64,000 nucleotides of DNA from Isoetes taiwanensis (lineage: Eukaryota; Streptophyta; Lycopodiopsida; Isoetales; Isoetaceae): positions 5,783,132 to 5,847,131 of the forward strand of contig JAJEKV010000011.1 in the NCBI GenBank assembly GCA_021234155.1, written 5' to 3'. The notes beneath the pieces are model-generated. The model had not been told where the DNA came from. It ran no database searches and saw nothing but the letters and a program-made list of their open reading frames with translations. Position numbers and translations under genes: made by a program. Each line of letters starts with the position of its first letter. Within the stretch, counting starts at the first letter, position 1. Shown in pieces: positions 8,600 through 64,000 of this stretch.

Positions 8600-8681
8600 A
8601 CTATTTCCCACGTCATTGGATGCAGTTGTATGGAATGAATGTTCTCCGTTGTAATTTGATTTCAACATTCTTTTCTTCGTT

Positions 8682-11690: not shown

Positions 11691-11800
11691 ATGAGTACAA
11701 CAGAGCAAATTGAAGCAAAAAAAGGGCAATTTGGGTGCGAGAAAAAGAACACGACTTACCTTGCACTAGCTCCCACCGGAGAGGGCGTTGCATGGACATG

Positions 11801-14152
11801 TGTGGCGTCCCTTACTGTGATATCACGGTGCCCTCACCGTATACAAAGCAGGGAGTTCATCCCCCATACCAGCTCCATGCTATCTGGGGCCCTCCACAAG
11901 ACACCGCAACCGTAGACGGGTTCCGGTGGGAAGAGTGGAAGGGTCATTGCACCAGCCTCCCTCGGGGCCTACCTAGGCTGCGGAAGCGTAAAACATACAT
12001 GTCATCGGTAGCACATACATCAACATCATATGACCATCACGAAGGATGGTCCTCCCACATATCGACACATCACATAGGGAATCCTACCCAAGGCTCGAGA
12101 CTCAAGGGAATGACCCGGGCTTGGGTCTCCAGAGTTCATTGCAGACAGAGTTCATGGCAATGGATTTGGCTGGCATATGAACATGGCTTATGGTTGTCCA
12201 CTCCATCCGCCCCTCCCGTGCACACTTTGCAGAGTGGTCTGAAAAGTGTCGGGACCCGACTGTAGCCCGCCGGATGCATAGCCAAAAGGGCTATTCCTGG
12301 GCTCATCTTCCCGATTCAGATGGGGCGGTAGGGATCACTCCCTCCGAGGTGCGCATCTTGACTCGAGGTGACTAGAGGGCCACTTTGCCGTATTCGAACC
12401 CACCGGAAAGTGAACACCACTTCACGGGTAGTCGAGCCCATGCCTTGCCCACACGCAGTGGCAAGCCATTGGACCTAGTCACAATCAGGGTAGCCCTTAA
12501 GGACGAAAGTTCGCCAAAAGGCTATTTTTTAAAGGTATCGAGAAATTTTGATGCTATGGTTTAGTAGGGCCCGTTATAGATGAAAAAAATAAAATTAGCC
12601 AACTTTTCTACAAACAAATCTCACTCCCCTTGAAAATTCGCCACATCCACTAAGCGTCATAACTATGGATTCGCCTTATCCTCTACCCTCCTTCTCGAAG
12701 ATTTCTTAAGGAATCGCCTAATATTCTAGGCTTTCTTCATAACCTAATCTATTCTCCATATCCATCCAGGTTCATTTTTGTAGCTATTGTGTTTCAAATA
12801 CTTCTTCTAAGGATGCACTGGAGAGCATTTTTTTACAGACCTCCCTTTTCATAGATTTATTTTATCTACAAGGATAAGCCACGTTCTCATTTGCAAAGGT
12901 TAAGTTGTGGTATTGCATCATGCAACTATAATTATGATGTGTTTGTGTCCTCGATTAAATATGGATGCCGATGAATAAAATCTCACCACAGAAATTGCAC
13001 TTGGAAAATAAAGACACTTAAATATTGGCAAAATAATATTGGCCATGATTCGCCTAGATTTCTATAAAAAAAAATTCATGTCTAGAAAACATTCGCCAGC
13101 ATAACTAATCTTGCAACTCTATTATTCGCCCGACCTTCTAAATTATGCGTAGACAAATTTCGCCTTAAGGGCAACCCTGGTCACAATGATCCCCGGTAGG
13201 CTTTACACACCAGAGGGATCGTTCAAGAGTCAGGACATGAACCTCCTTCTTAGCCAGTCTGGCCTCTTCACCCACATCCCGGTGTGGCTCTTGTGCACAG
13301 GCCGAATCTACAGTGTGCTAGAGAGGCTACTCTAGGAGCATCAACTACCAAGCTTTAGGTCTCTACCCCCCTTCCCAATACAAGGAGTTCATAGAGATAC
13401 ATCATCCATATACTTCACAGAGAACTAAAGAACTAGATCTAATCTACAACATAGAGTTAGGTTCTTTAGTTAGAATCTGCTATCTAGAGATCTAGAGGGC
13501 TGCTATGGGCAATTTAATAGGCTAAACCTACTGCTTCAATGACTAAAATAGGGTTTAGACTATCTAATTGGCCAAATACCTGATCCTTGAGGGACTCCTC
13601 GACTGAGCTCGACCATCCTGGCGAGGCAGCTCGAATCAAGGGAAACTAAGGATGCAATTCTCCCGAGTCAGGAGGGGCGGTTTTGGCCAAAGGCAGCCAA
13701 AAGCAGTTCTAAAGCCCTAAAATCGAAATTTGGGCAAGTTAGGGTTTCCTACCCTATATAGACAAGGGGGGTGGCTAGGGTTTCCAATTATCCCCTTTTG
13801 GCATGTGGGATAATTGGAAATGGGCCCACTTGCCTTTAAGGGCTAGGTGGCCAAATGTGCACACATGGAAATGTGTGCCCACATTAATGTGTACATTGGA
13901 CAATGTGCACATTAATTGCACCTATGGGTGTGGCCCACTTAGCATGAAGTGTCCACATGGAAATGTGTGCCCACATTAATGTGTACATTGGAAAATGTGC
14001 ACATTAATAGTTGCACCTATGCTTGGCAAGTTGCCCCCTAGGGCTACCCACCTGGCTATACGGTAGCGTACACGTCAGCCGGAGTGGCGTGTACGCGTGA
14101 CGAGGCAGTACGGTATACGTCCTGGGGGCATATACTGTGCTGGAACGTCACA
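11801..14152 (-). repeat. 3' LTR of the H3-carrying chromovirus (with nested MITE)
   Basis: It matches 24499-26171 along its length once the insert at 12486-13179 is removed. The last 680 bp or so (13480-14152) are almost identical to the other LTR, while the CG-rich first part differs by clustered substitutions and short indels. Ends are TGTGGCG and CGTCACA. The flanking kelch-side bases ACATG are the target duplication. Confidence 0.93.
12486..13179. mobile_element. hAT-type MITE nested in the 3' LTR
   Basis: A 694-bp insert absent from the 5' LTR. Its ends are CAGGGTAGCCCTTAAGG and the inverted CCTTAAGGGCAACCCTG (16 of 17 matching), flanked by a perfect 8-bp duplication GTCACAAT (12478-12485 and 13180-13187), as expected for hAT. 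It codes for nothing. Subterminal TTCGCC motifs recur near both ends, and TTCGCCAAAAGGCTA near the left end also occurs at 27902 beside the hAT transposase gene. Because only one LTR carries it, it arrived after the retrotransposon. Confidence 0.92.
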
Positions 14153-14165
14153 TTCTCCCCACCTT
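14153..14165 (-). promoter_or_regulatory. Polypurine tract
   Basis: Minus-strand AAGGTGGGGAGAA directly abuts the TGTGACG start of the 3' LTR, the expected plus-strand primer for reverse transcription. The second element has the equivalent purine run at 56671-56683. Confidence 0.85.
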
Positions 14166-14170
14166 AAAAT

Positions 14171-14188
14171 GATGCTGTCCGCAGCATC
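14171..14188 (-). promoter_or_regulatory. Small conserved hairpin beside the polypurine tract
   Basis: GATGCTG and CAGCATC form a 7-bp stem around a 4-base loop. The second element keeps the hairpin at 56689-56706 with AATGCTG and CAGCATT, a paired G-C to A-T change. It may aid priming or 3' end handling; role unknown. Confidence 0.55.
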
Positions 14189-14189
14189 G

Positions 14190-15019
14190 TGGGTCTCCCC
14201 ACCTTGGGATTATCCTAACCTGCAATCAACCTGATGCATACGATAACTACTATAGTCCCTACACATTTATTAAGATTACCTTAAGGTAATATTTTTATGA
14301 CATTATCACAACATTATATTATGAGGCAACTTATCAATTCATAACATCACTAAACAGGTTACTCCATAATTTACTTAACATGACAATTAAGTTTATCAAA
14401 ATTTAAAATTAACGTCCAAGGTACTCTTCATTCCTTGCAACACATTCCAACAAAATTTGTGTTGCAAGTCTTCGTAGCTCGACCTCCTTGCCCTCCGGAG
14501 CGCTCTATTGGCCTGCAGGTCGACACTACGTTAGTACCATTAATTATTAATAAAATTTTGGTTATATGGTGACCACCCCACCTATCTACATGGATGCATG
14601 GCTAATCTCCCGGCGTAGGAAGAGGATGGATCTTCCATTATGGCCGCGGAGACAGCGCCTATATGCCTATATGCCACTCATGCCTACACCTCTAGTTGCC
14701 CAGCGTGGAGGATATCCTTCTCGCGTGGGGGGCGTGAAGGATAGATTCCTCCTATCAAAGCATATATGGGGCTAAAGGTGCTTTCCCTACCAATGCATTC
14801 CTCAATGACCTCCTTTCTCTCGAGGTCGTCTACTTCCGTGGGACAGAAGTAGACTTTCTAATCTACCTTCCACTCGCCCAAGCGGAAACGCGGTCATGCC
14901 TACATTGACATTACACCACGCCCTAGAGATCACCGTAGTGGTCCCATCATCGGTAACAACGCATGCGACCCATACTAAGCATAGGTTGCATGCGTAGATT
15001 AATCTTAATTACACAAGAA
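14190..15019. other. Non-coding 3' part of the chromovirus
   Basis: Between the integrase stop and the polypurine tract. Only a 69-codon plus-strand frame lacking motifs is present; no further element gene seen. Confidence 0.6.
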
Positions 15020-15466
15020 TTAACCTACACAAATCCACATGCCTGAGCCGATTTCTTCGGAGATGACCTTGCCGTCCCATTGCTCCATAAATTGTGGATA
15101 CTGCTTTACCAAATCTTTCTTAAGTACCCACGTCGCGTCTTCCACTGGTAAGTGTTTCCACTTGACCAAATATTGGAGGAATTCTGATCTCCTCGTTTTC
15201 TTGAAAGCTTTATCAAGAATCAATTCTGGAACTATTTCCAGCTGTTCCTCCGTCATTTCCAACAACGTTGGAGTGTCCAAGACTTCGTCTGGATTTGGAG
15301 TATGCTTCTTCAACAAACTCACGTGGAAGACCTTATGAATCTTTAGGTGTGCTGGCAAGTCTAGCTTGTAGGATTGATTACCTATTCTCTTGACTATTCT
15401 GAAAGGTCCAGCCCACCTTGGAGCAAGCTTCTTGCAATTCCCGATCCTGAGCTTCGCCTGCTTCAC
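15020..15466 (-). CDS. Integrase C-terminus with chromodomain
   Basis: The frame reads KLAPRWAGPFRIVKRIGNQS, the GPF/Y module of Ty3/gypsy integrases, then HVSLLKKHTPNPDEVL and, near 15120-15190, YLVKWKHLPVEDATWVLKKD, a chromodomain-like segment with the aromatic and acidic residues expected (Y, W, W). In chromoviruses this module binds chromatin, often at H3K9-methylated nucleosomes, and steers insertion. It is separated from the catalytic core by frame changes. Its coexistence with an H3-tail-bearing ORF in the same element is the notable context. Confidence 0.85.
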   Translation of the reverse strand: MKQAKLRIGNCKKLAPRWAGPFRIVKRIGNQSYKLDLPAHLKIHKVFHVSLLKKHTPNPDEVLDTPTLLEMTEEQLEIVPELILDKAFKKTRRSEFLQYLVKWKHLPVEDATWVLKKDLVKQYPQFMEQWDGKVISEEIGSGMWICVG

Positions 15467-15485
15467 CTTGATCTTGAGCCAAACA

Positions 15486-16376
15486 TCATCTCCAACTTTG
15501 AACTCTCTTACTGTTCGATGCTTGTCGGCGATGCTCTTCTGACGACTTCTTCTTTGCTAGCGGATAACCTCGAACTTCTTCCACAAGCTGCTGCGCATAT
15601 CGGCCAACATCTGGCCGCAAAACTTCCACTTTGACACGGGGTTGTGCCAAATGTCCAGAGTTAGGCAATCGATAGTCAGAATTGATCATAAACGGCGACA
15701 TTTGGGATGATTCACCGCTTGGTGCTATTGTATGCAAACTCCACCAAGTGAATAAATTCTTCCCACATACTTTGCTTATTCCGACATAGTTTTCATAGCA
15801 TGTCCTCTAAAATCCTGTTGGTCCGCCCGTCTGCCATCCGTCGAGGATGATATGCCGTGCTCATGGATAGCTTCATGCGGATTGTCGCAAAAGAGGTCTT
15901 GCCAAAAGGCGCCATGAACTTCGGATCCCCTCAGCGGAGATGATCTCCCTTGGCATGCCATGAAGCCTGAAGATCTCTTTGGTGAAGAGCTTTGCTGTAT
16001 CCATAGCTGTATCTGTGGTACTGCAAGGCACAAAATGTGCCATTTTCGACAACTTGTCGACCACTACCATCAAGGCATCCTTCCCTCTTGCTGTTCTTGG
16101 GAGTCCTGTGATGAAATCCATGCTGATTACCTCCCACTTAGCGTTTGGCACCGCTAATGGTTCCAATGCCCCTGGAATTCGAAGCTGCTCTGCCTTGGTC
16201 TGCTGACATAGCTGGCATTCCTTGATGTAGCGAGCCACCTGCTTCTTCAGTCCTGGCCAATAATAGCTGCTGCGTACTTTGAAATATGTTTTCATGAATC
16301 CCGCATGGCCAGCTATGGGCTGTTGTGCGTGTCGTGGAGGATCAATTTCCTTATACCTGCTGATTCGGGTACGCAC
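15486..16376 (-). pseudogene. Integrase zinc-binding and catalytic core, frameshifted
   Basis: 15873-16376 carries the HHCC zinc-binding region ([11 protein letters not shown] and KECQLCQQTK) and the start of the DDE core: DFITGLP with the first Asp and VVVDKLSKMAHFV. The second catalytic block is disrupted near 15920, where ISAEGIRSS stands in place of the usual D-R-D-P, and the region holding the catalytic Glu (about 15790-15850) can only be read with several 1-2 nt shifts. Integrase would join the cDNA to host DNA; this copy appears inactive as written. Confidence 0.85.
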
Positions 16377-16798
16377 AACTTGTTCTTATGGTATAACAGG
16401 TTGCCTTCCTTCTTAAAATGTTTAAAGGCTTCCTGCTCCTTATCTGTTCTAGCCTCCTTAGAGAGGCTTGCCCATACTTCCTTGAAATCCACATCCGTTG
16501 GCAAGGACTCTTCAATCTTCTTACCAAAGTCGCTGGAGATTGTCGAAATTGCATTGCAATGCACTCTAGTTGTCAGGGGATGCCTTGAAAGCGCATCCGC
16601 TACCACATTGAGCTTCCCTGGCTTGTAGACTATATCAAAGTCGTACTCTTCAAGGAACTCCATCCACCTTCTCTGCCTCAGGTTGAGGTGTGGTTGCGTG
16701 AATACATATTGGAGGCTTTGGTGGTCCGTATCCAATTGGAACTTCCTTCCCGAAAGGTAGTGCCTCCAAATCCTTAATGCCCTGACAACCGCAAGCAA
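16313..16798 (-). CDS. RNase H C-terminal half and linker to integrase
   Basis: Reads [12 protein letters not shown] and [20 protein letters not shown] then [13 protein letters not shown], the end of the Ty3/gypsy RNase H and the conserved linker. A single missing G near 16798 separates it from the RT frame. This may be a true frameshift or a sequencing error; the downstream frame is otherwise clean. Confidence 0.88.
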
Positions 16799-18216
16799 TT
16801 CCTATCGTGCGTGGGGTAGCGCGTTTCGGCGTCGTTCATCTTCCTGGAATCATACGCTACCACACGCTCTTCTTGCATAAGCACTGCTCCTGTAGCTATC
16901 TTACTTGCGTCTGTCGCTACCAGCTTATCTTTCTCTGGGTCCGGCAGGGTTAAGACTGGGGCTGTTGTTAAAGCTTCCTTCAACAATTCAAACCCTGCTT
17001 GGGCTTTCTTGTGCCAATGCTCTGCCCAATCTTTCACTTTCTCTGCCCTCGTCAAGTCTGTTAACGGGGCCGCTATCTTGGCAAAGTTCTTCACGAACTT
17101 CCTATAGTACCCTGCTAGGCCGAGAAAACTTCTGACTTCATGCACATTCTTCGGCGCCGGCCACTGAATGACGGCTTCAATCTTTGCAGGATCCGTCGAG
17201 ATGCCTTCTGCTGAGATCACATGACCTAGATACTCCACCTTCTCTGTTGCGAAGTGGCACTTCGACAGCTTGGCGTACAACTTGTGCCTCTTCAACTTCT
17301 CCAGCACTCTTCTCAAGTGTTGTACGTGCTCTTCAAGGGATCTGCTATACACCAAAATGTCATCAAAGAAAACAATCACAAAGATGTCTAAGAACTCCCT
17401 GAAGATGTCGTTCATGAGCCTCATGAACGTTGCGGGGGCATTTGATAAGCCGAAAGCCATTACCGTGAACTCATAGTGCCCATACCGCGTTCTGAAGGCG
17501 GTCTTATGGATATCGTCTTCCTTTATCCTGATTTGATGATAACCTGACCTTAAGTCGATTTTGGAGAAGATCTTTGCACCTTGGAGCTGATCCATCAAGT
17601 CATCTGATCTGGGGAGCGCGTACTTGTTCTTAATTGTGTGCTTGTTCAACTGCCTATAGTCTATGCACATTCTTAGACTGCCATCTTTCTTCTTAACGAA
17701 GAGAATGGGCGCTCCAAATGGCGAAACACTAGGTCTAATGAAACCTAGGTCCAGCAGCTCCTGCAACTGCTTCTTTAGCTCTGACAACTCCTGCGTTGTC
17801 ATTCTATATGGAGCCTTGCTCGTAGGCTTTGTTCCCGGTTCGAGTGCAATCTCACACTCGACTCCCCTATAAGGAGGGAGCTGCTTGATCTCATCTGGAA
17901 AGAGATCATGGAATTCCGTGATCAGCTTAGCTACTTGCTTTGGCAACTTGCTCAGCACCTTGTCTTCTTTGCTTCCTTCCGATTCCGGCTCACTAATCTC
18001 AAGCTTGAAGATGTATGCCACCTGCTCACTCTTGATGCACTTGAACAGCCTCTTAGAAGACATGCACTGCATGATGGGAACAACTTCTTTACCTGTGATT
18101 TCGATGATCTTGCCGTCAGGCGTTGGGAAGGTCACCTTCCGCTTTCCGACATAATGGCCCCCGCTGGCCCAAGGTACTCCATTCCTATGATCAAGTCGTT
18201 TCTTGCCAATGCCCAT
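16774..18216 (-). CDS. Reverse transcriptase with start of RNase H
   Basis: A 480-codon open frame. The RT palm holds [32 protein letters not shown] (first catalytic Asp), [20 protein letters not shown] and FFDDILVYS (the catalytic Asp pair, with FFDD instead of the usual YxDD), followed by [11 protein letters not shown] and the RNase H start [16 protein letters not shown]. It copies element RNA into cDNA using the initiator tRNA-Met primer. The frame breaks at its 3' end, in RNase H. The N-terminal 100 residues are the linker after protease. Confidence 0.95.
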
Positions 18217-18229
18217 TACTTCCTTTCAT

Positions 18230-18420
18230 CCGGATATTAATCCCCGCAAGTCGATGTCGGTTGATTCTCTTGCTCCGCCGCCCCTTTATCGCACCACTTG
18301 CTAAGACAACGGGCCTTGGCTTTGACTTTTAATGGTTTCAGCTTCAACATTTGAACCATTCGGGGATGCAAAGTTATGGCTACTTCCCGAGTCTATCAAG
18401 ACTATGAAGGACTTGGCCTT
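18230..18420 (-). pseudogene. Aspartic protease remnant
   Basis: Minus-strand frames give FIVLIDSGSSHNFA, the DSG active-site motif of retroviral-type aspartic proteases (DSG codons at 18385-18393). The rest of the domain lies in other frames before the RT frame begins at 18216, so small indels have broken it. It would cut the Gag-Pol precursor. Confidence 0.75.
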
Positions 18421-18539
18421 GGCCTTCCCTATTTGTGGAAATTACTTTATAATCGGGTCTCTTTGCTCCAGATCTATTGCGGCAAAGATGTGACACTCAC
18501 CTCAATGTAGTCAGCGGCCTTCCGCCGCCGCCGCCGAGA

Positions 18540-20050
18540 GAAGGCCCCAATCTCCCAACTCCGCTAGAGCCGCACTCATGACGGTAGGGGCGCTTTGCAG
18601 CGTCCCTATGGCCTTGGCTGAAACACCAAGCACGGTTGCTTTTTCTATGCACTCCCCCTCTTTTCCTTGGGGCATCGCTTTTAAAAAGGATCGCCCGCTT
18701 TGGAGTAATTTGACCCCTCCCGCTTGTCCTTGAAGGACACCGCTTCTTCTCCTCGCCGCTCCGTTCCCACCATATGGGGCTCTAGCCGGACCGGATTTGC
18801 TGCCCTAGGGCTATGGCTTCAGCCGCTTGCCTTTATCCCGGAAATACTTTGCCGCCTCGGAGCCCCGCAAGCTTATAGCCTTGGACTCGCTTCGACATCT
18901 TGTCCTAGGGTTTATTGCTCTCACAAGCTTGCGGATCTCCTCATTCAGCCCTTCAATATAGCTTTCAACTGCATGCTTCTCTCCCAACTTTGGCACATAC
19001 AGCCTTAGCCTCATGAATTCCTCTGTATATTTCTGGACTAGTTGCCTTGCTGCAACCTATAGAACTGCTGCATCATGCTGGACTTATGTTCCCTCGGGAG
19101 GGTAAAAGCATGTTAGGGTGTCCCTTAAAAAGTATTATTTAGTGACCAAAAAAGTACCTAAAAAGGTACCCAGGACTGGGTACTGGGTACCTATGTAATA
19201 TCTCAATAAAAAGTACATTCTAGAACTTTTATATATATTTTGGTCTCCGGTAGCATTATCTTTATCTTAACTTTGAATATTAATGCGTCCTTGACTTTTA
19301 TTTTGGATATTTGTACTAGTTTTAATAGAAAATAAAAATGAGAAAGTACCCAGTTCTGAAGTACCTAGTGTATGTACTTTTGCAGGTTCCAAAAGTGGTA
19401 CACCCTAACATGCTTTTACCCGGGACGTAATGGCGCTTGAAGGCTTTAGCAAACTTCCTGAACTTACAAGCATCCCTGCTTAACCCATGTGCCTTTGCAT
19501 AACCCTTCCACCAAATCCGAGCGGCTCCTTTCAAGTTGGTTGTTGCAACTCTGCCTTTGTCTTTATCTTTCATGCCATAAGCATTGCCGTACTCACTCAT
19601 TTCGTCCAGCCATGCCTCTGCTTCCAATCCTGACCTGTTCTCCCCTGAGAACTGTTCGATTCTTTTCGTCCATACATTGCCCGGTCGCGAATCTACCTTC
19701 TTCTAGTAGTCGAGGGCCCGTATCTCTTTGTCGTCCATCCGGGGTGTTCCTCTGCCTTCCATCTTCAGTGTTCCTTTGCCTTCCATCTGTTCGGTCCTGA
19801 GCCTGTTCTTCCTCTTCCTCGGAGTCGGAGTCTGAGTCTGAACTTGAGTCGGAAGATTCCGGACTGGAGGATCTCCTTCTCTTGCTCCTCTTCTTGTCCC
19901 TTCCTGCTCTCCGAGCTGATGCTTGCGGCAACTGAGCGTTGCCCACCACCCCACTCCACTTTCGCTTTGCGCAGACAAAGCCCTTTATCTGCTCCAAACC
20001 GTCCCTCATCTCGATATATCTCCTCCTCCGGGGTCATGGGTTCCATATCT
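18540..20050 (-). pseudogene. Gag gene, frameshifted and split by a MITE
   Basis: The 5' part (about 20046-19593) encodes an Arg/Ser and acidic stretch (DKKRSKRRRSSSPESSDSSS). The conserved Gag core follows at 19627-19430 (MEAEAWLDEMSEYGNAYGMK and KGAARIWWKGYAKAHG), is interrupted at 19100-19420 by a MITE, then resumes with MRLRLYVPKLGEKHAVESYI (19014-18811). A degenerate CCHC-like segment lies near 18620. Gag forms the particle that packages element RNA. With the MITE and its 5-bp duplication removed the frame runs on across the junction, so the MITE is a late insertion. Confidence 0.82.
19100..19420. mobile_element. 321-bp MITE inside Gag
   Basis: The ends share an inverted GGTAAAAGCATGTTAGGGTG-type sequence (perfect over about 21 bp) and are flanked by CGGGA duplications (19095-19099, 19421-19425). 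Internal sequence is AT-rich with several GGTACC/AAAGTACC motifs and no ORF. Superfamily uncertain because 5-bp duplications fit more than one group. Confidence 0.85.
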
Positions 20051-20319
20051 TGAAATAGGTTCCTTGCCGGGGTGGTCTCAAGGGGGTCTGCTTTCTATAA
20101 GGTCTCAAGCAGCTTGTCGTTCCCTAACGTTTAGGCCTCTAGCTGCATACACAAGTAATTCATGGCTATTTGGTTAGTTTCATTTGTTCTCCTGCATTGT
20201 TTATGTTCGTTGGTATAATTGTGGGGCAAAAATACATCAACAAAACATTTAAAGTGCAATAGAATTTATATTCATATATCATATAATATTTCGGATAAAA
20301 AGTCTCCTGGATCAAGAGT

Positions 20320-20990
20320 CTAACTAGTCTTGAAATCGCCCGGTAAGGCAGGGTTGTCTTCAAGAAACTTCTTAACTTGGGCAGGCCCTACCGAAAGTGA
20401 CCCAAGTTCACGATGATGCTTTACCGACGAGCCTCCATGTATGGCTCTCACGAGGTCTTCTACCCTGGTGGGATGTGAGGCCGCGATCCCTTTAATCTCG
20501 GGCCGTGGGGTATGGCAAAAGTCAAGAGGTCGAGTGCTATTGATCTCTTGACCGGGAGCGGCATAGTCGACATTTGTTGCTATTCGAGCATGCTGCCGGC
20601 CCGAGTGCAATCAGCATGAACACTCCCTCTTCACCTCACGGGGCTGAACTTGCGGTGTATTACCGCTATTCTCCCATCCATCGGGCAAAGTAGTATCGGC
20701 GACGGCGTTGTTGTGTGTCGCCAAGCTTCTCCACTTGTTTGGCCTCCAGCTGTGCGCCCGGCGTGCTACGTCGACCTCGATTTCGTCCAGCTCCCCTGTA
20801 GTCTTCAATTGTCGCGGTCGAGCCTCCCGAGGTCGATTCCTTCTCCTCTTGGGGGTGGTGTCGGCGACTCCCATTAGGATGCTCGTGGTCTTCCCACGGA
20901 TCCCCATCTGTTCTTGGAGGGCGAGGAACTCCTCCTCTCAGCTGGCAGCCCCGCCGGGCCCATTATTTGCCCGGATGTTCTTTGTAGGCT
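20320..20990 (-). pseudogene. Unassigned element frame with one in-frame stop
   Basis: 20611-20907 and 20320-20610 lie in the same frame, divided only by a TGA at 20611-20613; the reading appears to extend upstream to about 20990 (EEEFLALQEQ). Composition is basic and hydrophilic (PKRRRNRPREARPRQLKTTG). It may be the C-terminal part of ORF2 or an extension of Gag. TGA could have arisen from CGA by cytosine deamination. No domain recognised. Confidence 0.45.
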
Positions 20991-21011
20991 TGGATGTCTA
21001 AGTCGCTTCCC

Positions 21012-21360
21012 CTAATGTAGGTGTCGGCTTCTCCGATCTGGAAGCGGAAGTCCGAGGGCCCCTGACGATGAAGTCGCCCATGTCGGTTTGCCGCAGCTTG
21101 GTGGAGCAGTTCGTCCAACCCAGCCCCTCCCCGCATTCGGGAAGGTTCGATGTCGCCGGTGAGGAGTAGATACTCCTCCGCTGATGATGATGGGGCCAGG
21201 GCTTGTGATGCCTAGCCCGGTGGGGAGCAACTCACGATGCCCTGCCGCTCCGGCCGGTTGATCATCTCCCTGCCTCGCCTTGGCGCCGTTCTTCGTCTGA
21301 GTCGAGCTCCGTGTATCCTTCGTCGTCCGACTCCTCTTCGTCCTCTCTTGCTTCCTGTTC
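21012..21360 (-). pseudogene. Acidic and low-complexity continuation of ORF2
   Basis: Past the TAG stop that ends ORF2, the same frame continues with an acidic EDEEESDDEGYTELDSDEE stretch to about 21255, then frames shift. Likely a degenerate C-terminal region of ORF2; no motif assigned. Confidence 0.4.
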
Positions 21361-21825
21361 CTATTGATACTGCAACAACATCTGCTCTTCCTCTTGCACT
21401 GCTACGGGGTCTACCTCCATCGGAGGAATAGAGGTTACCCCCATCGGGTTTTTGGTGCGGTGGGATAAGAAGATGGCTAGGGCTGCGGTGTAAGAGAAGT
21501 ACTTGGTCCTATTGGCTGTCAGGACCATGTAGTCAGGTAGCCTCTGCGCCTTGTTAGTTAAGTACTTGGCGATGTTGGGGACATCGCCCAAGGCTGCTTG
21601 AAGGGATGGGCGGGGAACGAAGTATCCTATGCAAGGGGGGACTTGAACAAGGGAGGGTCCTACCCTAGCCTGAAATTCCGCTAGCACCTGCCTATATGCT
21701 GGGGTTGCATTTAGCGTAGCTTGGATGTCAATTTCTTTGCCAAAGATTTGGAAGATGTCGTTGACATCCTCCTCGGCAGCATGGGCACTGGCGCTGTACC
21801 ATCGCCCGAAGTCAGCAGTGGCCAT
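21361..21825 (-). CDS. Accessory ORF2, unknown, conserved between two elements
   Basis: A 154-codon frame starting MATADFGRWYSASAHAAEED. It lies after ORF1 and before Gag, with its own TATA box at about 21941-21950 (117 nt upstream) and two palindromes above that. A weak homologue exists in the second element (61640-61800), where RWCS and HVFDHLFDLHAIL align with RWYS and DIFQIFGKEIDIQATL, followed in both by a TP pair. The stop is TAG in a CAG-rich context and the frame continues beyond, so the original protein was probably longer and acidic at its end. I recognise no domain; a nucleoprotein or chromatin partner of ORF1 is only a guess. Confidence 0.6.
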   Translation of the reverse strand: MATADFGRWYSASAHAAEEDVNDIFQIFGKEIDIQATLNATPAYRQVLAEFQARVGPSLVQVPPCIGYFVPRPSLQAALGDVPNIAKYLTNKAQRLPDYMVLTANRTKYFSYTAALAIFLSHRTKNPMGVTSIPPMEVDPVAVQEEEQMLLQYQ

Positions 21826-21940
21826 TGATCTAGCAAAGAAGGGAGTAACAGACGGATGCAGAAGCGCCTCAGGGAGCTGGAAGATCGCCTAAGCAGTGGA
21901 GAGCAAATTTTGCAGGGTGCTAAATGAGAAATGGGGGGCT

Positions 21941-21950
21941 TATTTATAGA
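21941..21950 (-). promoter_or_regulatory. TATA box for ORF2
   Basis: Minus-strand TCTATAAATAAG about 117 nt before the ORF2 ATG. The same position relative to ORF2 in the second element holds CTATAAAAAG (61906-61915). This suggests an internal promoter rather than expression only from the LTR. Confidence 0.55.
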
Positions 21951-22126
21951 ATTGGGTAAAACCCTAATTTTTGGATAACCTAGAATTTACTGAGATTAGG
22001 CAATTCTGATCTATTAAGGGGTGCAATTGCAAGTTTGAAGACTATTTCTAGGGTTTGAGCATGCTAATAACAACTACTGACCCTATTGTACAATTTGGAG
22101 ATCATTTGGTGAAGAAATGGTACGAG

Positions 22127-22193
22127 GTCTCACACGTTGCGCCCAGACCGATTTTGAGAATGTCGAAATCTGTCCTGGCGCGACGTGTGAGAC
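22127..22193. promoter_or_regulatory. 67-bp palindrome A, upstream of ORF2
   Basis: Arms GTCTCACACGTTGCGCC and GGCGCGACGTGTGAGAC enclose a smaller GATTT/AAATC hairpin. One of four near-identical copies in this element; A and B lie upstream of the ORF2 TATA box. Confidence 0.85.
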
Positions 22194-22325
22194 ATGGGTC
22201 CTAATTGGGCTAGGCTTACTCAATTTAAGTGATCTAAGGCTGTAATTCCACTAAACTCATCGAGTTAGGCAGAATTGACCCCTTACTTAGTCGATTTGGA
22301 GCTGTTTTGGGCATTTTTGGGCATG

Positions 22326-22392
22326 GTCTCACACGTTGCGCCCAGCCCGATTTTGAGAATGTCAAAATCTGTCCTGGCGCGACGTGTGAGAC
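22326..22392. promoter_or_regulatory. 67-bp palindrome B, upstream of ORF2
   Basis: Same arms as copy A, starting 199 bp further from ORF2. The arms are conserved while the DNA between copies A and B is not, pointing to selection or gene conversion on the palindrome itself. Confidence 0.85.
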
Positions 22393-22535
22393 ATCGTCTA
22401 AATTTTGCTCAAAGCTCCAATTCAATTAAAACAAAAGCTAGGGATCGATATCTTAACCTATTTAAACAGGGTTTGACACTTTATTTACACAAAAATTTCT
22501 TTATATTAACAAAATTTTTCAGTTATTTACAAAAT

Positions 22536-23855
22536 TCAAGGGCGTTCTCCCTTGATGTGGCTGGCAAGATGCATATCCTGCCTCATGAGGGTAACCCTCT
22601 TCGCGTGCACCGTGCAGGCCGTTGAATCTTCGAAGTGCTGCACAATTTTTGCTTCTGCTGCCTCCTGCAGGCACAGCAACATTTCGTCGGTCACTCGCAT
22701 GTCCGTGTTGTATTCTTGCATTACTTCACGGACCAAGCGTTGGAACGGCGCCCGGGGAATCAAGAGTCCGTAACTCTTCTGAAAGTGGCGGATCTCCTTG
22801 AGGGCTCTGTCTTCTAGCTTCTTCTTCTTGCTCCGCTTCTTACCTGGTGCTCGGGGAGGCTTGGGCTTGGGTGGCGGGGGCTTCAGATTCTGCCTTGGGG
22901 GTACTCCGCCTTCGACTGTCCTCACCCGATGCTCTTGGAAGTAGGCATTGTATGCCTCCCACTTCTCCATATAGGAGTTGTGTTCCCTAATCCTCTTCTG
23001 ATAGACCTTTACGGGGTCTATCACATACGCCTCCCGCTGGGGTCGTGGGGCTTTAACCCTATCCCACGTCGGGAAAGGTGGGGGCTTCGCTAGCTGCCCG
23101 GCCTCCTCCTGCTCTTGGGCTACCTGCTCTTCCTCTTCTTCTACGGCCGGGGGCTTCGAAGAGCTTGCCCCGTCTGCGCCCGGCGCGTAGTCCTCATCCG
23201 AGTCGTCGGTAGAGGGCGGGGTCTGCTCTCCCGACGGCTCGTTGATGGCGGGACCCACTGCCCGCTTCCCGACCTTTACCACTTTCCGCTTGCCTGCCTT
23301 GATGGCTTTGGCCTTCCTCTTCTTGGACCCGCTGGCTGTGGTCGGGTCGTCTTCTCGAGTCTTTGTTCTCCGCTCCCGGCGGCGCTCCTTGACTTCATAC
23401 TTGTGGACGAAGCGTGCAAGGTCGGCCTCTTCATCCGGGGTGAGTTCCGGCGGCTGCTGCCCCTCTCTTCCTTGCTTCTCCTGCAAGTGGATCTCAGCCT
23501 GGGGTTGCTCCTGGGCTGTCGATTGCTCTGCCTGCTCCCTCTGCTCTTCCTGTAGGTTGGTGTTCTCCTGGTGTTGCTCCTGGGCTATTGGCTGCCCTGT
23601 CTGCTCCTGCTGCTGCCCGCTTCTTCCTTCCTCCTGGGCAATTTCCTCGAGGATCTGGTTCATGATATCCGGCCGGTCGTCCTCTAAGAGCTCTGTATGG
23701 TCGCTCTGGTCCGATCCTGCTTCTTCGCTCGACGAAGATTCGCTTTCCCGGAGAAGGCGTTCTTCGAGGATCCTCCGAAAGACGCCGGAACCGCTGGCGC
23801 TGGAGGATTCGCTCCTACGAGGCTTCCGAGCAGTCTGTTTTGTACGTGCCATCAT
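22536..23855 (-). CDS. Histone H3-like protein encoded by the retrotransposon (ORF1)
   Basis: An uninterrupted 439-codon frame. It starts ATG-ATG; the second ATG (23850-23852) has the better context (A at -3, G at +4) and would expose Ala after Met removal, giving ARTKQTARK, identical to H3 residues 1-9 including R2, K4, R8 and K9. Position 10 is Pro, not Ser. Residues about 12-345 are not H3: Ser/Glu-rich, then Q/E-rich repeats, a basic [14 protein letters not shown] stretch, an acidic stretch and a Pro/Lys-rich hinge. Residues about 350-439 align with the H3 fold without gaps ([37 protein letters not shown]), about 47 of 86 residues identical by my eye. Loop 1 has no CENH3-like insertion. 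It should pair with H4. It has its own TATA box and palindromes, and a decayed homologue in a second element. Confidence 0.95.
22539..22796 (-). other. Histone-fold domain of ORF1
   Basis: Codons for the alphaN to alphaC region of H3. Conserved H3 signatures present include QKS before alpha1, FQRLVRE in alpha1, LQEAAEA in alpha2, FED, the Cys and His of the H3-H3 four-helix bundle (C-T-V-HAKR) and the Asp of alpha3. Differences lie in the alphaN (IPRAPF), loop 1 (MRVTDEM) and alphaC (ASHIKGERP), surfaces touching DNA and chaperones. Confidence 0.93.
23823..23855 (-). other. H3 tail mimic ARTKQTARK at the ORF1 N-terminus
   Basis: Codons ATG ATG GCA CGT ACA AAA and so on give nine residues identical to mature H3. 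The second element keeps RTKQ-V-ARK at 63544-63567 with three synonymous third- or first-base codon changes, so the peptide rather than the DNA is conserved. Confidence 0.95.
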
Positions 23856-23953
23856 CTTACGGTTTGTCGATCGGAGCTAAGCGCCAGAAGATCGCCTTGA
23901 CAGTCACGAGCGAAGTTCTAGGGAAGAACACGAAAAATGGGAGGGGTCTGGGT

Positions 23954-23963
23954 CTATTTATAG
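23954..23963 (-). promoter_or_regulatory. TATA box for the H3-like ORF
   Basis: Minus-strand CTATAAATAG about 100 nt upstream of the ORF1 start, with palindromes C and D further upstream. The layout is that of a separate Pol II promoter internal to the element. Confidence 0.6.
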
Positions 23964-24037
23964 GGGCCAATTTTAGGTCAACTTTTAAACTACCTTTTTG
24001 GGTTGTCTAAAGCATCTAAAACACCTAATTAAGCAAG

Positions 24038-24104
24038 GTCTCACACGTTGCGCCCAGCCCGATTTCGAGAATGTCAAAATCTGTCCTGGCGCGACGTGTG
24101 AGAC
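24038..24104. promoter_or_regulatory. 67-bp palindrome C, upstream of ORF1
   Basis: Arms as in copies A and B, with CGAGAATGTC in the loop. About 75 bp upstream of the ORF1 TATA box. Confidence 0.85.
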
Positions 24105-24224
24105 ATGGTGGGGCCCACTATTAAATTAATATGTAACATGCTAATTCTACTGAATCTTAGCTTAAATTTAAAATTATCAAGTTATTTTACTGAAATTTAC
24201 AACTTTTTGGTGTCAAAGCTTAAT

Positions 24225-24291
24225 GTCTCACACGTTGCGCCCAGCCCGATTTCGAGAATCTCGGAATCTGTCCTGGCGCGACGTGTGAGAC
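24225..24291. promoter_or_regulatory. 67-bp palindrome D, upstream of ORF1
   Basis: Fourth copy, 187 bp from copy C, with CGAGAATCTCGG in the loop. All four copies are exactly 67 bp. Confidence 0.85.
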
Positions 24292-24485
24292 CACCCTACT
24301 TTTTGGATGTTGGCTCATCAATTTTTAATCTTTTTACATTCCTATTCATTTTAACTGTTACTAGCTTAGCATAACTACAAAGATGGGAAAATTTTTTTTT
24401 CCCATTTTTCGAGGTTTAAGGATCCTATCAAGTTAGTGCTACTGGGAACATGGCCAGTGCTCTGCTCTTGGTCTCCAAGAACATA

Positions 24486-24497
24486 GCTCTGATACCA
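24486..24497 (-). promoter_or_regulatory. Primer binding site, initiator tRNA-Met
   Basis: Minus-strand TGGTATCAGAGC, complementary to the 3' end of plant initiator tRNA-Met, one base inside the 5' LTR. It fixes the orientation of the element as minus strand. Confidence 0.93.
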
Positions 24498-24498
24498 C

Positions 24499-26171
24499 TG
24501 TGACGTCCCCTACTCGTATACGGTGCCCTCACCGTATACAAACAGAGTTCATCCCCATACCAGCTCCATGCTAATACGGGGCCCTCCACAAGACACCGCA
24601 ACCGTGGACGGGTTCCAAAGTGGGAAGAGTGGAAGGGTCATTGCACCCCGCCTCCCTCGGGCCTACCTAGGCGCGGAAGCGTAAACATACATGTCAGTAG
24701 CACATACATCAACATCATATGACCATCACGGCGGATGGTCCTCCACATATCCGCACGCATACAAAGATCAAAGACATCACATAGGGAATCCTACCCAAGG
24801 CTCGGGACTCAAGGGAATGACCGACGGCTTGGGTCTCCGTGAGTTCATTGCGCATGACGAGTTCATGGCAATGGATTTGGCTGGCATATGAACATGGCTT
24901 AGGGTTGTCCACTCCATCCGCCCCTCCCCGCACACACTTTGCGTAGAGTGGTCTCAAAGTGTCGGGACCCCGTAGAGTCCCGCGGATGCATAGCCAAAAG
25001 GGCTATTCCCGGCTCATCTTCCCGCCCGATGGGGCGTGTAGGGATCACTCCCTCCGCAGGTCTGCATGCCGACTCGAGGTGACTAGAGGGCCACCGCCCG
25101 TGATTCGACCAACCCACCGGAAAGTGAACACCACTTCACGGGTGTCGAGCCCATGCCTTGCCCACACGCAGTGGCAAGCCATTGGACCTAGTCACAATGA
25201 TCCTCGGTAGGCTTTACACACCAGAGGGATCGTTCAAGAGTCAGGACATGAACCTCCTTCTTAGCCGCCCGGCCCCTTCACCCACATCCCTGTGTGGCTC
25301 TTGTGCACAGCCGAATCTACAAGTGTGCTAGAGAGGCTACTCTAGGAGCATCAACTACCAAGCTTTTAGGTCTCTACCCCCTTCCCAATACAAGGAGTTC
25401 ATAGAGATACATCATCCATATACTTCACAGAGAACTAAAGAACTAGATCTAATCTACAACATAGAGTTAGGTTCTTTAGTTAGAATCTGCTATCTAGAGA
25501 TCTAGAGGGCTGCTATGGGCAATTTAATAGGCTAAACCTACTGCTTCAATGACTAAAATAGGGTTTAGACTATCTAATTGGCCAAATACCTGATCCTTGA
25601 GGGACTCCTCCTGACCTGAGCTCGACCATCCTGCTGAGACGCTCGAATCAAGGGAAACTAAGGATGCAATTCTCCCAGGCAGAGTCTGGGAGGCGGTTTT
25701 GGCTGTTGAGGCAGCCAAAACAGAGTTCTAAAGCCCTAAAATCGAAATTTGGGCAAGTTAGGGTTTCCTACCCTATATAGACAAGGGGGGTGGCTAGGGT
25801 TTCCAATTATCCCCTTTTGGCATGTGGGATAATTGGAAATGGGCCCACTTGCCTTTAAGGGCTAGGTGGCCAAATGTGCACACATGGAAATGTGTGCCCA
25901 CATTAATGTGTACATTGGACAATGTGCACATTAATTGCACCTATGGGTGTGGCCCACTTAGCATGAAGTGTCCACATGGAAATGTGTGCCCACATTAATG
26001 TGTACATTGGAAAATGTGCACATTAATAGTTGCACCTATGCTTGGCAAGTTGCCCCCTAGGGCTACCCACCTGGCTATACGGTAGCGTACACGTCAGCCG
26101 GAGTGGCGTGTACGCGTGACGAGGCAGTACGGTATACGTCCTGGGGGCGTATACTGTGCTGGAACGTCACA
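24499..26171 (-). repeat. 5' LTR of the H3-carrying chromovirus
   Basis: 1673 bp, TGTGACG to CGTCACA, homologous to 11801-14152. It contains a doubled segment of about 60 bp (ATGGAAATGTGTGCCCACAT, near 25880 and 25975) and a GGTCTCTACCCCCTTCC block shared with the LTR at 55029. Flanked outside by ACATG. Confidence 0.93.
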
Positions 26172-26411
26172 ACATGGAAGAGTGATTTCTACAGAAACCT
26201 TGAAATCTTATGAACATGAAAGCTTATTGCCAGTTATCCGGTTCAAACAGCAGCCGCCCACAACGCAGGTGACCGCCAATTTACAGGGATCAGCAGGTTT
26301 TTAGCAGTCACAAGCATATCTTAGGTATATTCCAGCCAGCATATACCTAAGATATGCCACAAACCCAATAAACAAGGGTTTGCCCCCCTAGGGGCAACCC
26401 AAAAAATAGTC

Positions 26412-28950: not shown

Positions 28951-31900
28951 ATGGACAAGAAGCATACATCAAGAGGCATCCTTGCATACTTTAATGGCTC
29001 TAAGAGAAAACCTTCTAATTCAAACATGCTTGATTCTATATTGGAGGAAGACTGTGAATCTCATAGAGTTGAGATTGAGACTGATATTGTTGGAGAAACT
29101 CCCATTCAAATTGAAGAAAATCCTAATGAGTGCATGGCGATACAAATTGAAGAACAAGGTGTCAAGAGAAGGGGAGAAAATAAGAGGAAGCATGGTAGAA
29201 AAGGATGGGAGGCTGGTGAAAGAGATTTTCAGCCCACTTGGGCAGAATTATATCCCTGCATAGAAAGGCATGAGGAGGAGATAGGTGGAAGATTGAGAAT
29301 TCTAGCTCGTTGTGTTGTTTGTTCATGGAAGAAGGGACTGCCTCATACAATGCAGCCAAAGTTGGATACAATTGAGAAGCACTTGGGGAAGATATATGAA
29401 AAGAAGATTGTGAATGGAAAAGAGGAAGGTGTCATAAGATGGAAGACAGCAGCAGATTGCATGCATATTAGAAATGAAGAGGCGTATAAAAAGCATATTT
29501 GGGTTGAAGAAACACGAGAGAAATACTCAATTCCTAGCTTGCATAGGAAATCATTGGAGAAGCAAATGAGGAGCAAACTTTTACAAGTACAAACAGTCTT
29601 TCACTTGTTGAGGAGGGGACGACCTATGTTAGACTATGAATTTGCAAAGGCATTTTTAGTTGCAATTGGTATGCCGGAGTTGCCTTCATCGCATTGGACA
29701 AGGTTAAGTGGTTGGGAGTTTGGTAAAGCAATAGATCGGGTCATCAAAGATGACTTGATAGAAACCATAAAGAGATGTGAGTTTTTTGCAATATCTTTGG
29801 ACGAAGCAAGTGCGAAAGACCTCTCCTCTTGGGTTTCAATGACTATATATTGTGTGAATGGACATGTGCGGCAATCACACTATGTTGCAGTTAAGAAGAT
29901 GCTAAAAGATGCTACAGCTTTAAGCTTGTTTGAGATAGTGAAAGAGAATCTTGTTACTGAGCTAGAATTGTCACTTGAAGACATTGCCAAGAAACTTGTA
30001 TGCATTGGAGTAGATGGATGCTCCGTCATGCAAGGACATCGAACTGGATTATGTATAAGGATTCAAACAACATTGGCGCCTTATGCATTGGCCATCCATT
30101 GCATGGCTCATCGAATGGATTTGGCATATAAAATTGTGGATAACTTCAAATGCATAGAGAACATTGAAGGGCTTGTAAGTTGCGCAGCGAGTTTTTTTTG
30201 CCGCAGTCCAAAAAGGTAATGTTGTTGAGTCCATGTTCACTTTTAGTTTATTGGGTTTTGATTTTATACTTTTTTATCATGTTATGTGTGGCAGATACTT
30301 ACAATTCCAAGATATGTCCAAAGGATTGACAAAAGGCAGGAAACTTATGAAGACTGTGAATACAAGATGGATATCTCTCTATTATCCAGCAAAGCGCCTT
30401 TTTGAAGAATATCCTGCACTCGTCGGTTTGATGGATAAGTTAGTGAATGAGGGTGATACAGACAAGGCAAGTGATCTTTTAGTTCGCCTCACAGATGTGG
30501 AGACATTGTTTACGCTGGCTGGTAATGCCTTTATCCTAAAAAAAGTGTTATTTTCCTTCTACTTGCATTTAGACATCTTATTTTATCATAAAAGGAATTG
30601 CTGCATAATGCTTGCAAGCTTATGACAGCTCATTGCAAGTTTATGATTGCAAGTTTATGCTTGCAAGTTTATGACTCATTGCACATATTGCATAGTGATG
30701 CATACATCTCTGAACTCTTGGCAGATTATACATCTAAGTTGCCATAGTAATGTTAACTACAATAGTAGCCAGTTTTCTTTCTTTGGATGTTCTAACGTAG
30801 TACATGTGACAAAATGCTGGACATAATACAAGGTAGTACCGATAAGGTGCAGCATGAGCTAAATGCTTTATGCTTTTATTTCTACTGCTCATTACATCAC
30901 TTTATGTTCTTATTCACTACCTATTTCTTCAGCCCCTTTCAAAATGTAAGGACTCTAAAACTTATGTGCAGGTTTACTTCCCATGTTGAATGAGATGAAC
31001 ATGTTAGTGAAATTGGCATCTAAGGAGACAATGTATATTTCTGAGTACACAACAGCGAGAAAATTGTGCTGCACAACTTTAGAGTGTTTATACTCTTCTG
31101 TATTAGATGTACCATACAATAGACTTAAGTTTCCAGCATGGTACAACCTGCTCAATATCGAAGGCGACAGTCCAAAGAGTCCTTTAACGTATAATAATAA
31201 AGGAATTATTTGTATGAAAGTGCGTTCACGATTAGTCCAGGTAAATCTTTATGTTATCTATTAGTAGGATTCTGATTTCAAATGTCTTATATGTTCACAT
31301 TGCAGATGTATTCTCCAAAACATAGAATTCGTGGACGGCTTATAAGGAGGGCACCTGCTCCTAAGGCTGATCTAGAAAACATTACAACAAAGGTAAGAGA
31401 AAATCTGAAGGATGTGGCTGCAGCAGTTTCTAAGGAAATTAGAGAACTTTTGCCACGAGATGACCTCTTGGAAGCTACTGCCATAGTTCACCCACGATTT
31501 TGGAGAAGGAATATAGAGTTAGAAACTGTAGAGGAGAAGGATAGAGAGGTAAAAAAGTTACAGGAGAATTTTAAGGCAAGGTTGAAGCTTCTTTCTGATC
31601 ATTTTTGTAAATCAACATCTCCAAATGACATGGCAGAGATTAATGGCATTTTGAATGGAAAGAAATTAAATGAACAATCTGTTTGTTTTGGCGCAACTAT
31701 GTGGGCACAATGTGACAAACTTTCTGATGCCGAATTCAAGGAACCAAGAATCATTACAAAGCTTTGGACAATTCTTGGCAATAGTCAAGTGCTTTCTGAG
31801 CGCATGTCAGAGTATTTTAGGCTTGCCGATCTTTGCCAAGCGTTGATTCTTGGATCCGTGGAAGATGAACGAACATTCAGTGCATTGGGGATTCTTAAGA

Positions 31901-62425: not shown

Positions 62426-62582
62426 TCACAAAATGAGGCATGCGTTAAGCGACGCAGGGCTTTTCTCGCGATCCAACCCGAGTTGACTTTGACTCCACAT
62501 ATATATACATACAACCATTAATTCTAGGAACATATATACATACAAGTTCAAAATCTTATTCAAAGATTCCTAAATTTCATTT

Positions 62583-63575
62583 TTTTTCTAATCCTCCGCG
62601 CTAGGTTCATGCTCTTGAGCATAATGGTCATCCTCTTGGCATGAATGGTGCAGATCTTGGCCTCCTCGGCTTTGGCCGCTTCCTGGCGAGATCCCGCCAT
62701 CGTTGATGTGGTTCCGTAGTTGTGGCCCATCTTGAACTCCTCAATAGACCTTTGATGTAGGCACTCGAAAGAGAGTTTCTGGATCATCAGACTGGTATGA
62801 TGTTGGCAATGTCGAATATGCTGAGCAGCTCTACTGTGCTGGGGATTTGGCCCATGGCGGACCTTCTTCGGGGGAATCGGGTCAAGGTGGTGGAGGCTTG
62901 ATTTTCGACTCTGGTCGGCTGCCTTGTCACATCGTTTGGCGGAGATAAATCTTGTATGCTGCCTTCTTCTTCTCGTACTCCATATCTTGCTTGAGCTTTA
63001 AGTAGCTTCTCGCCAATGTTGCCCTGGATATGGTTTTCGAGCGTAGGCTGCGTCTGTTCTTCGGCCTCCTCCTCCTCCTCTTCTTCTTTAGCCCCTTGCG
63101 CCCTCCTCTTTGTTGGTGTGGTCCTTCCTCCTCGTACTCATCCTCCTGCAGTTCGTCCGGCTGTGGTTCTCTGATAACCATGCTCTCCCTACGCCTAGCT
63201 TCACGCCTCTTTGTACGCTTTTCTTCTGCATTGGTTGCTCGCTCGCCTTGCTGCTGTTCCTGCTGCTTGGGTTGCTCGTATTGTCGAGGTTGCTCCTACT
63301 GCTTGCTGCTCCCCTATCCTCCCTGGTGTTGGGGTTGCTCCTGTTGCCTAGGTTGCTCTCGCTACTTGCTCTTCCCCTGCTCTCCCTGTTGCTGGGGTTG
63401 CTCCTCCTCGAGTGAAACGATTCGTCTGAAGAGCTTGAGTGGTTAAGGTCGTCGTCTGGCCTAGGTCACGGGCCCTCAAGAATTTGCTTGTCGCCGCCCA
63501 CCGTGAGTGCTTCAACGTTCCGGTGCAAGCTGGAGCTTCCAACCTTCCTAGCTACTTGTTTGGTCCTCCTACTTC
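62583..63575 (-). pseudogene. Decayed histone H3-like ORF1 of element 2
   Basis: Frame-switching reading recovers the ORF1 plan. The N-terminus has RTKQVARK (63544-63567), but the ATG positions have become GGA and AGT. A Ser-rich and then Q-rich section follows (about 63410-63230) with TAG at positions expected to be CAG. A region like YLKLKQDMEYEKKKAAYKIY (63020-62940) matches [20 protein letters not shown] of element 1. The H3 fold follows at about 62830-62583: SRAAQHIRHCQHH, IQKLSF, EEFKMG, then AKICTIHAKRMTIM and LARRIRKKM. Several residues (KLSF, LARRIR) are nearer canonical H3 than element 1 is, so both descend from a more H3-like ancestor. Confidence 0.82.
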
Positions 63576-63757
63576 CTTGATGGTGGCCTCTTCGAGCGAT
63601 CTTGCCTCTATCTTCGCGGCTCCTTTGGGTCGATCTCGTCGGCTGTTCGTTCAGTGGACACTCTTATGGCAGCTTTGGAGATTAGCTTATAATTCACCTT
63701 ACAAGGGTAAAGGAAAGGTTCAAGCTACTATTTGGGAACTTCTAAGGAGTAGAGGCA

Positions 63758-63766: not shown

Positions 63767-63907
63767 GTTTATTAGCTACTTTTTCTTAAGAGTAAATTTA
63801 TTATAACTATGGGTTAATAATTAAGGTACTTCCCCTAATCACTTAACTATTTTTCAAAATTTCCTAATTCCTTTTTGGGCCAAGTAGTGGTCATTTCACG
63901 CCATTTT

Positions 63908-63957
63908 CTTTCAAGCTTTCTTTTGAGTGATTTCTCGCTCAATTTTTCGCTTGAAAG
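63908..63957. promoter_or_regulatory. Palindrome upstream of the element-2 H3-like ORF
   Basis: CTTTCAAGC...TTGAGTGA pairs with TCGCTCAA...GCTTGAAAG (about 16 of 23 positions paired). It occupies the place of palindromes C and D of element 1, with unrelated sequence. Confidence 0.5.
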
Positions 63958-64000
63958 GTGCGGTTCATGAACAACTTGAGCTCAATTTTACTAGAAGGTT

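Follow-up and report, generated by a model that had tools for sequence, protein, structure and literature searches.

A Ty3/gypsy retrotransposon lineage of Isoetes taiwanensis whose first open reading frame encodes a histone H3 variant under purifying selection

Core histones have previously been known from eukaryotes and from some DNA viruses. The closest described cases are bracoviruses with an H4 and giant viruses with a single H3-like histone, where each virus carries one host-like core histone that is thought to enter host nucleosomes (accessible text of PMC9145170). The same accessible part of that review of viral histones contains no instance of 'retrotranspos', 'retrovir' or 'Ty3' and one instance each of 'transposon' and 'transposable'. 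Uptake of a host domain of another kind is described for Ty3/gypsy elements of orchids, which acquired an m6A RNA demethylase domain (accessible text of PMC9289625).

Here we describe, in a window of 64,000 nucleotides of the I. taiwanensis genome (the whole stretch of DNA analysed), a Ty3/gypsy element whose first open reading frame (ORF1) encodes an H3 variant. Across the lineage this variant joins H3 tail residues 1-9 through a long variable linker to a complete histone fold at the C-terminus, and it is under purifying selection among copies. With the chromodomain-integrase Ty3/gypsy elements (chromoviruses) the element shares LTRs, a primer-binding site (PBS) motif, gag, protease, reverse transcriptase (RT), RNase H, integrase and chromodomain; unlike them, it has two extra ORFs before gag, one for the H3 variant and one for a 507-aa protein family without a Pfam match, and in the family of the window copy each of the two follows a hairpin pair and a TATA box. 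As in the viral cases, a virus or mobile element carries one core histone; the viral genes belong to DNA viruses and closely resemble those of the host, whereas the present H3 fold is diverged, follows a linker of about 340 residues and is encoded by an LTR retrotransposon. As in the orchid elements, a Ty3/gypsy lineage took a host regulatory domain, the function and the host group being different and no histone being involved there.

Two further systems bear on expression and role. Foamy viruses are LTR retroelements with an internal promoter for extra genes, a likeness to the present element, in which promoters are presumed from TATA boxes only. The VANC proteins of VANDAL transposons are not histones and act through motifs in non-coding parts of the element. 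They are encoded by the element and counter host silencing (accessible text of PMC5735166 and PMC10398659); VANC is a possible analogue from a different element type, an anti-silencing role being only proposed for ORF1. We found no description of a core histone in an LTR retrotransposon in open-licence papers, a search that used coarse term filters and had most subscription papers and all bioRxiv preprints beyond its scope; the statement of a preliminary description of this DNA that no LTR retrotransposon family with an H3 gene had been described thus survived searches of open-licence full texts.

The element and its H3-like reading frame

The window copy is partly decayed and comprises the following parts.

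11801..26171, minus strand: whole Ty3/gypsy LTR retrotransposon, partly decayed copy, 14,371 bp, delimited by LTR pair, target-site duplication and PBS
26172..26176, minus strand: target-site duplication CATGT, 5' side, from the sequence
24499..26171, minus strand: 5' LTR, TGTGACG...GACGTCACA, pairing with the 3' LTR
24486..24498, minus strand: primer-binding site motif GTGGTATCAGAGC, directly after the 5' LTR, from the sequence
22536..23855, minus strand: ORF1, H3-like protein of 439 aa, 439 codons open on the element's own strand
23823..23849, minus strand: H3 N-terminal tail ARTKQTARK within ORF1, from the translation
22539..22808, minus strand: H3 histone fold within ORF1, aa 350-439 (PF00125; dN/dS 0.042)
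20320..21825, minus strand: ORF2, broken in the window copy, first 154 codons open
18500..20090, minus strand: gag region, compared by eye with other copies
16774..18225, minus strand: reverse transcriptase and part of RNase H (PF00078 E=1.7e-40, PF17919)
15873..16385, minus strand: integrase zinc-binding domain and part of the core (PF17921; PF00665 below its cut-off)
15020..15556, minus strand: integrase C-terminus with chromodomain (PF00385 E=1.5e-10, PF24626)
11801..14152, minus strand: 3' LTR, split by a 690-bp insertion at 12486-13175, by sequence comparison
11796..11800, minus strand: target-site duplication CATGT, 3' side, from the sequence

Two LTRs with a target-site duplication, a PBS and the domain order RT, RNase H, integrase (Pfam, window copy) are those of Ty3/gypsy elements, and the chromodomain at the integrase C-terminus (PF00385, E=1.5e-10) is that of chromoviruses. 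The primer site GTGGTATCAGAGC is presumably of the tRNA-Met type. The two LTRs align in two blocks, 96.5% and 87.1% identical, with many indels and with 49 substitutions over about 1630 ungapped positions. Gag, zinc knuckle and protease were recognised by eye in other copies of the window family, and gag and protease by Pfam in one copy of the second family described below. The gag of the window copy contains an insertion of about 370 bp (approximate limits 19050-19430) that is absent from the other copies compared by eye. The 690-bp insertion in the 3' LTR has inverted ends, CAGGGTAGCCCTTAAGG... and ...CCTTAAGGGCAACCCTG, and by these ends appears to be a small non-autonomous DNA element.

The preliminary description had reported an intact 439-codon ORF in the element's own orientation, inside an element bounded by target-site duplications and placed between primer site and gag. 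The frame is indeed open from 22536 to 23855 on the minus strand, between paired LTRs with CATGT on both sides; its position holds, with the added detail that ORF2 lies between ORF1 and gag. ORF1 begins with two Met, after which come the mature H3 residues 1-9 that had been read at first. Its C-terminal 90 residues form an H3-type fold, which the histone-fold HMM search proposed at that stage recovered as PF00125 (Histone) with 94.9 bits and E=5.6e-27; the best PDB chain by sequence is H3.3 (104.4 bits, E=8.5e-29). The ungapped identity, put at about 47 of 86 by eye, is 49/89 to a typical plant H3 and 51/89 to the host H3. An acidic, Q-rich and basic linker of about 340 residues joins tail to fold; for this stretch (aa 14-346) no match at E<=0.1 was obtained among 4336 word-sharing candidates from a database of 5.77 billion proteins. 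The linker stands in the place of H3 tail residues 10-38, which are absent, so the early wording of a full H3-like protein holds for the fold only.

In an ungapped comparison with H3, numbering and residue roles being taken as commonly assigned, ORF1 keeps K56, R69, R72, R83, C110, H113, A114, R116, D123 and L126, as would be expected of a protein that retains pairing with H4 and H3 as well as DNA binding, and it carries the substitutions R49 to K, R63 to P and R129 to H. The AlphaFold model of ORF1 is weak (mean pLDDT 44.9), with helices roughly at the H3 positions.

Both extra ORFs are preceded by a pair of hairpins and a TATA box.

24220..24296, minus strand: hairpin 1, upstream of ORF1 (-40.4 kcal/mol, z -6.7)
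24033..24109, minus strand: hairpin 2, upstream of ORF1 (-40.0 kcal/mol, z -7.1)
23955..23962, minus strand: TATAAATA TATA box, presumed internal promoter, 107 nt upstream of the ORF1 start, from the sequence
22321..22397, minus strand: hairpin 3, between ORF1 and ORF2 (-40.3 kcal/mol, z -7.1)
22122..22198, minus strand: hairpin 4, between ORF1 and ORF2 (-40.4 kcal/mol, z -6.7)
21941..21948, minus strand: TATAAATA TATA box, presumed second internal promoter, about 122 nt before ORF2, from the sequence

Each of these four hairpins is 67 nt long. A seeded search over 30 loci of the family returned 97 hairpins (four at every locus would make 120), and 92 have a length of exactly 67 nt. The motif TATAAATA precedes ORF1 in 29 of 30 copies and ORF2 in 28 of 30; the conservation of the TATA box in the leader alignment is biased, because copies were chosen by having TATAAATA. 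We read each hairpin pair with its TATA box as a presumed internal promoter, on the strength of the TATA boxes only. The idea that the hairpin arms are highly conserved sites was a first impression from biased seeds: the aligned copies (29 and 28) show no clear excess of arms over flanks (0.883 against 0.893 upstream, 0.931 against 0.883 downstream).

ORF2, located between the H3 ORF and gag, is a new protein family. It is intact in three of six other copies read through (507, 507 and 508 aa) and has no Pfam match, and AlphaFold gave no usable model (mean pLDDT 38.6). Among 7999 candidates scored from the 5.77 billion proteins, a single relative was found, P0121, which is 45% identical over its length and sits on a 2007-nt contig; from this protein, the ORF2 lineage seems present in a second dataset. 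Scans of viral contigs for relatives of ORF1, of linker-H3 proteins (twice) and of ORF2, and of genome contigs for linker-H3 proteins, each returned 0.

Copies, selection and a second H3-carrying family

The genome searched comprised 1,658,258,908 bases in 1110 contigs; the I. taiwanensis assembly is described as 1658.30 Mb in 204 scaffolds and 909 contigs, built from nanopore reads and polished with Illumina data (accessible text of PMC8566536). In an assembly of this type, frameshifts within repeats may stem from assembly errors. A search in six frames with ORF1 as query scored at least 96 places, from 14,174 first-look places, with at least 151 matching pieces. Among the matches listed, the main ORF1 piece is 69-91% identical at places other than the window's own, and separate N-terminal pieces are lower.

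The 30 best of these at least 96 places were taken for closer reading. The matched stretch, in some places partial, is free of stops in 22 of the 30, and a full ATG-to-stop ORF1 is present in 15 under a strict rule (ATGATGGC start, more than 380 aa, fold present). The 11-residue N-terminal H3-tail string is exact in 23 of the 30 copies, and the exact 12-base primer-site motif is found in 19 of the 30 fetched pieces; the order of primer site, ORF1 and ORF2 is repeated at many unlinked places among the 30 loci compared. LTR pairs were present in all six further copies checked, picked among the better ones, with 0.9-4.0% substitutions; a target duplication was seen in two of the six, as AAACC in one and, nearly, as GGGAC/AGGAC (4/5) in another. 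Since the LTR pairs differ by only 0.9-4.0%, the insertions are fairly young and the protein is older.

Over the 15 intact copies, dN/dS by counting is 0.149 for the whole of ORF1, and by part it is 0.055 for residues 1-15, 0.322 for 16-110, 0.162 for 111-345 and 0.042 for the fold; these values are biased low because only intact ORFs entered, which leaves their magnitude uncertain and their sign not. In a codon model with free omega, the log-likelihood gain over omega=1 is 178 for the fold, 190 for the linker and 20 for the tail (kappa fixed at 2 in the omega=1 model; codon runs used for likelihoods only). The window element thus belongs to a multi-copy family under purifying selection, and the ORF1 protein was kept by selection while the elements multiplied. 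The homology E-values, the conserved copies and the dN/dS values exclude a chance resemblance to H3.

A genome search with canonical H3, in which 150 of 9022 places were scored, returned at least 15 host-type genes (96-98% identical) and at least 135 further places of 71-86% identity, many of them in open frames of 420-567 aa. Seven of these 135 places, chosen for their long frames, define a second family that carries H3 and is similarly arranged at its 5' end (family C), and membership is claimed for these seven only. Their ORF1 products measure 409-420 aa and combine a new N-terminal domain with a C-terminal H3 fold (Pfam scan on two of the seven); the fold matches host H3 at 76-78 of 89 positions in the two copies compared, and no H3 tail stands at the N-terminus. 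In intact frames only, dN/dS is 0.037 for the fold, 0.271 for the linker and 0.093 for the N-domain. A by-eye idea that this N-domain is related to ORF2 was dropped after hhalign found nothing.

The family-C primer site follows ...GGAGCGTCACA in six of seven copies, and four of the seven leaders have two complete hairpins, GGGCGCCG...CGGCGCCC, upstream of ORF1, in sequence quite unlike those of the window family. The seven leaders hold only A/T-rich look-alikes in place of TATAAATA before ORF1, and the one copy read further has no hairpin arms of the family-C kind between ORF1 and ORF2; internal promoters are therefore supported for the window family alone. This copy, on contig C1018, has paired LTRs (95% over 855 bp, with the 3' LTR truncated at the fetched edge), capsid, protease and integrase domains with no RT domain in the frame scanned, and an ORF2 relative that is 24% identical over 242 residues (pairwise E=2e-7), its first part being without a match. 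The presence of ORF2 after the H3 ORF was verified for the window family and for this one family-C copy.

The window itself contains the remains of a second, diverged element, one integrase stretch of which is 74% identical to the first.

63892..63971, minus strand: hairpin preceding the H3 remnant of the second element (z -6.3), with a TATA-like site at 63765
62560..63600, minus strand: decayed H3-type ORF1 of the second, diverged element, with a tail-like RRTKQVARK near 63570 and a fold remnant at about 62563-62800

TATA-like sites occur in this element, as do hairpin candidates of a third sequence, with z of -6.3, -3.3 and -0.8; the weakest of them was equalled by 43 of 200 shuffles. Diverged elements thus repeatedly carry an H3 ORF close to the 5' end and, before it, hairpins whose letters change.

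Trees built from 89 columns place the window-type folds together with seven ENA proteins on one side of a branch supported at 99/95 or 99/96, and canonical H3s on the other; in the second tree (99/96), family C falls among the canonical H3s, with unsettled bootstrap. The seven proteins (P0078, P0093, P0096, P0100, P0106, P0112 and P0113) come from contigs of 10-40 kb and have an H3 fold behind a long N-terminal extension. Their identity to the window fold is 59-63%, against up to 59% for ordinary H3s, and they share IRHFQK and LCLQEAAEA with that fold; perhaps they represent another repeat-borne or mobile H3 family in another genome. A single origin of H3 in the window family (A) and family C was considered: the tree separates them at 99/96, from 89 columns and with the bootstrap unsettled. 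The trees would fit either two captures or a single one followed by evolution at unequal rates.

Proposed role and alternatives

Taken as a whole, the data are best explained by a selected H3 variant carried by the element and serving a self-encoded chromatin role, to which we give a probability of about 0.5. The working mechanism, leading from internal promoters to the chromatin state of the element, is inferred and more tentative. ORF1 and ORF2 would be made from their own internal promoters, each a hairpin pair with a TATA box. The ORF1 protein would enter the nucleus, where its conserved fold would pair with host H4, and the protein would be built into nucleosomes on the element, on its newly made cDNA or close to either. 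The short tail, devoid of H3 residues 10-38, and the acidic, Q-rich and basic linker might then create chromatin favouring expression or integration of the element, so that ORF1 would act as a self-encoded anti-silencing histone; K9 of the tail, if methylated, could be read by the element's own integrase chromodomain. Against the nucleosomal role stand the substitutions at R49, R63 and R129 and the doubled start Met, owing to which the ORF1 tail may lack a free Ala-1 such as true H3 has.

Put more generally, H3 variants made by elements would replace host H3 in the elements' nucleosomes and let an element write its own chromatin state, a plan that would have arisen or been refitted in at least two families, with the histone and the partner ORF2 of the window family each under its own internal promoter; this generalisation is possible and the odds are against it. 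If true, a selected retrotransposon H3 gene would mean that selfish elements can influence silencing through the nucleosome itself, and it would provide a testable case for how elements with chromodomain integrases meet H3K9-marked chromatin. The elements also supply natural H3 folds that are only 55-57% identical to H3 and have been kept by evolution.

The chromodomain of the element also gives rise to an unlikely reading, the best of those that compete with a self-encoded chromatin role. ARTKQTARK, displayed on the fold as an anchor and methylated at K9, would be bound by the integrase chromodomain, or would soak up host readers and writers, and would steer integration or block silencing rather than form a general part of nucleosomes. 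The low dN/dS of the tail (0.055) and the 23 of 30 copies with the exact 11-residue string suit this proposal, whereas the fold, at 0.042 the most constrained of the stretches measured, is conserved beyond the needs of an anchor, and the second family has no N-terminal H3 tail.

Somewhat less probable is a packaging function, in which ORF1 and host H4 would coat the cDNA or RNA of the element in the particle or pre-integration complex, like giant-virus histones. A histone fold together with basic linker stretches would be suited to it, and nucleosomal genome organisation is described for some giant viruses (accessible text of PMC12297534); against it, ORF1 is separate from gag, with a presumed promoter of its own, and no other histone domain is present in the ORFs scanned with Pfam.

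The fold was also compared with CENH3, since a CENH3-like ORF1 might send the element to centromeres or heterochromatin. At 39 aligned sites where CENH3 differs from H3 (against a presumed Arabidopsis CENH3 sequence), the window fold follows CENH3 at 10, with H53, F54, P63, L119 and R121 among the CENH3-like residues, and against such targeting it follows H3 at 14 and neither at 15. Its loop 1 has the length of that of H3, not the two additional residues presumed for CENH3, and the copies are spread over many contigs. We regard targeting of this kind as improbable.

Random capture of a host H3 gene that does nothing for the element is very improbable: retrotransposons do catch host genes, but selection across copies is strongly purifying, and H3 is carried also by a second family and, as a remnant, by a diverged element. 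A host H3 misjoined to an LTR element, the misassembly against which the preliminary description had warned, has a negligible chance even in a nanopore assembly polished with Illumina reads (accessible text of PMC8566536), where repeat frameshifts may be errors, because the same arrangement recurs at the 30 loci read, many of them unlinked, with LTR pairs in 6/6 copies checked, and the fold agrees with host H3 at 51/89 positions and is not near-identical to it.

Neighbouring features of the window

Rfam and tRNA scans of the window were empty. At 35919-40001 on the minus strand, a 1360-codon open frame with leucine-rich repeats (PF13516) is probably a host gene. Open frames at 28951-32124 on the plus strand, which have no significant Pfam match, resemble by eye a transposase that we take to be of the hAT type. 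Gag-like frames with cysteine/histidine knuckles at 53459-54347 (plus strand) belong, as judged by eye, to another retroelement in the opposite orientation. Finally, a unit of about 126 bp occurs three times in tandem at 8287-8632 and includes a palindrome around CTCGACTCGCGAGTCGAG.
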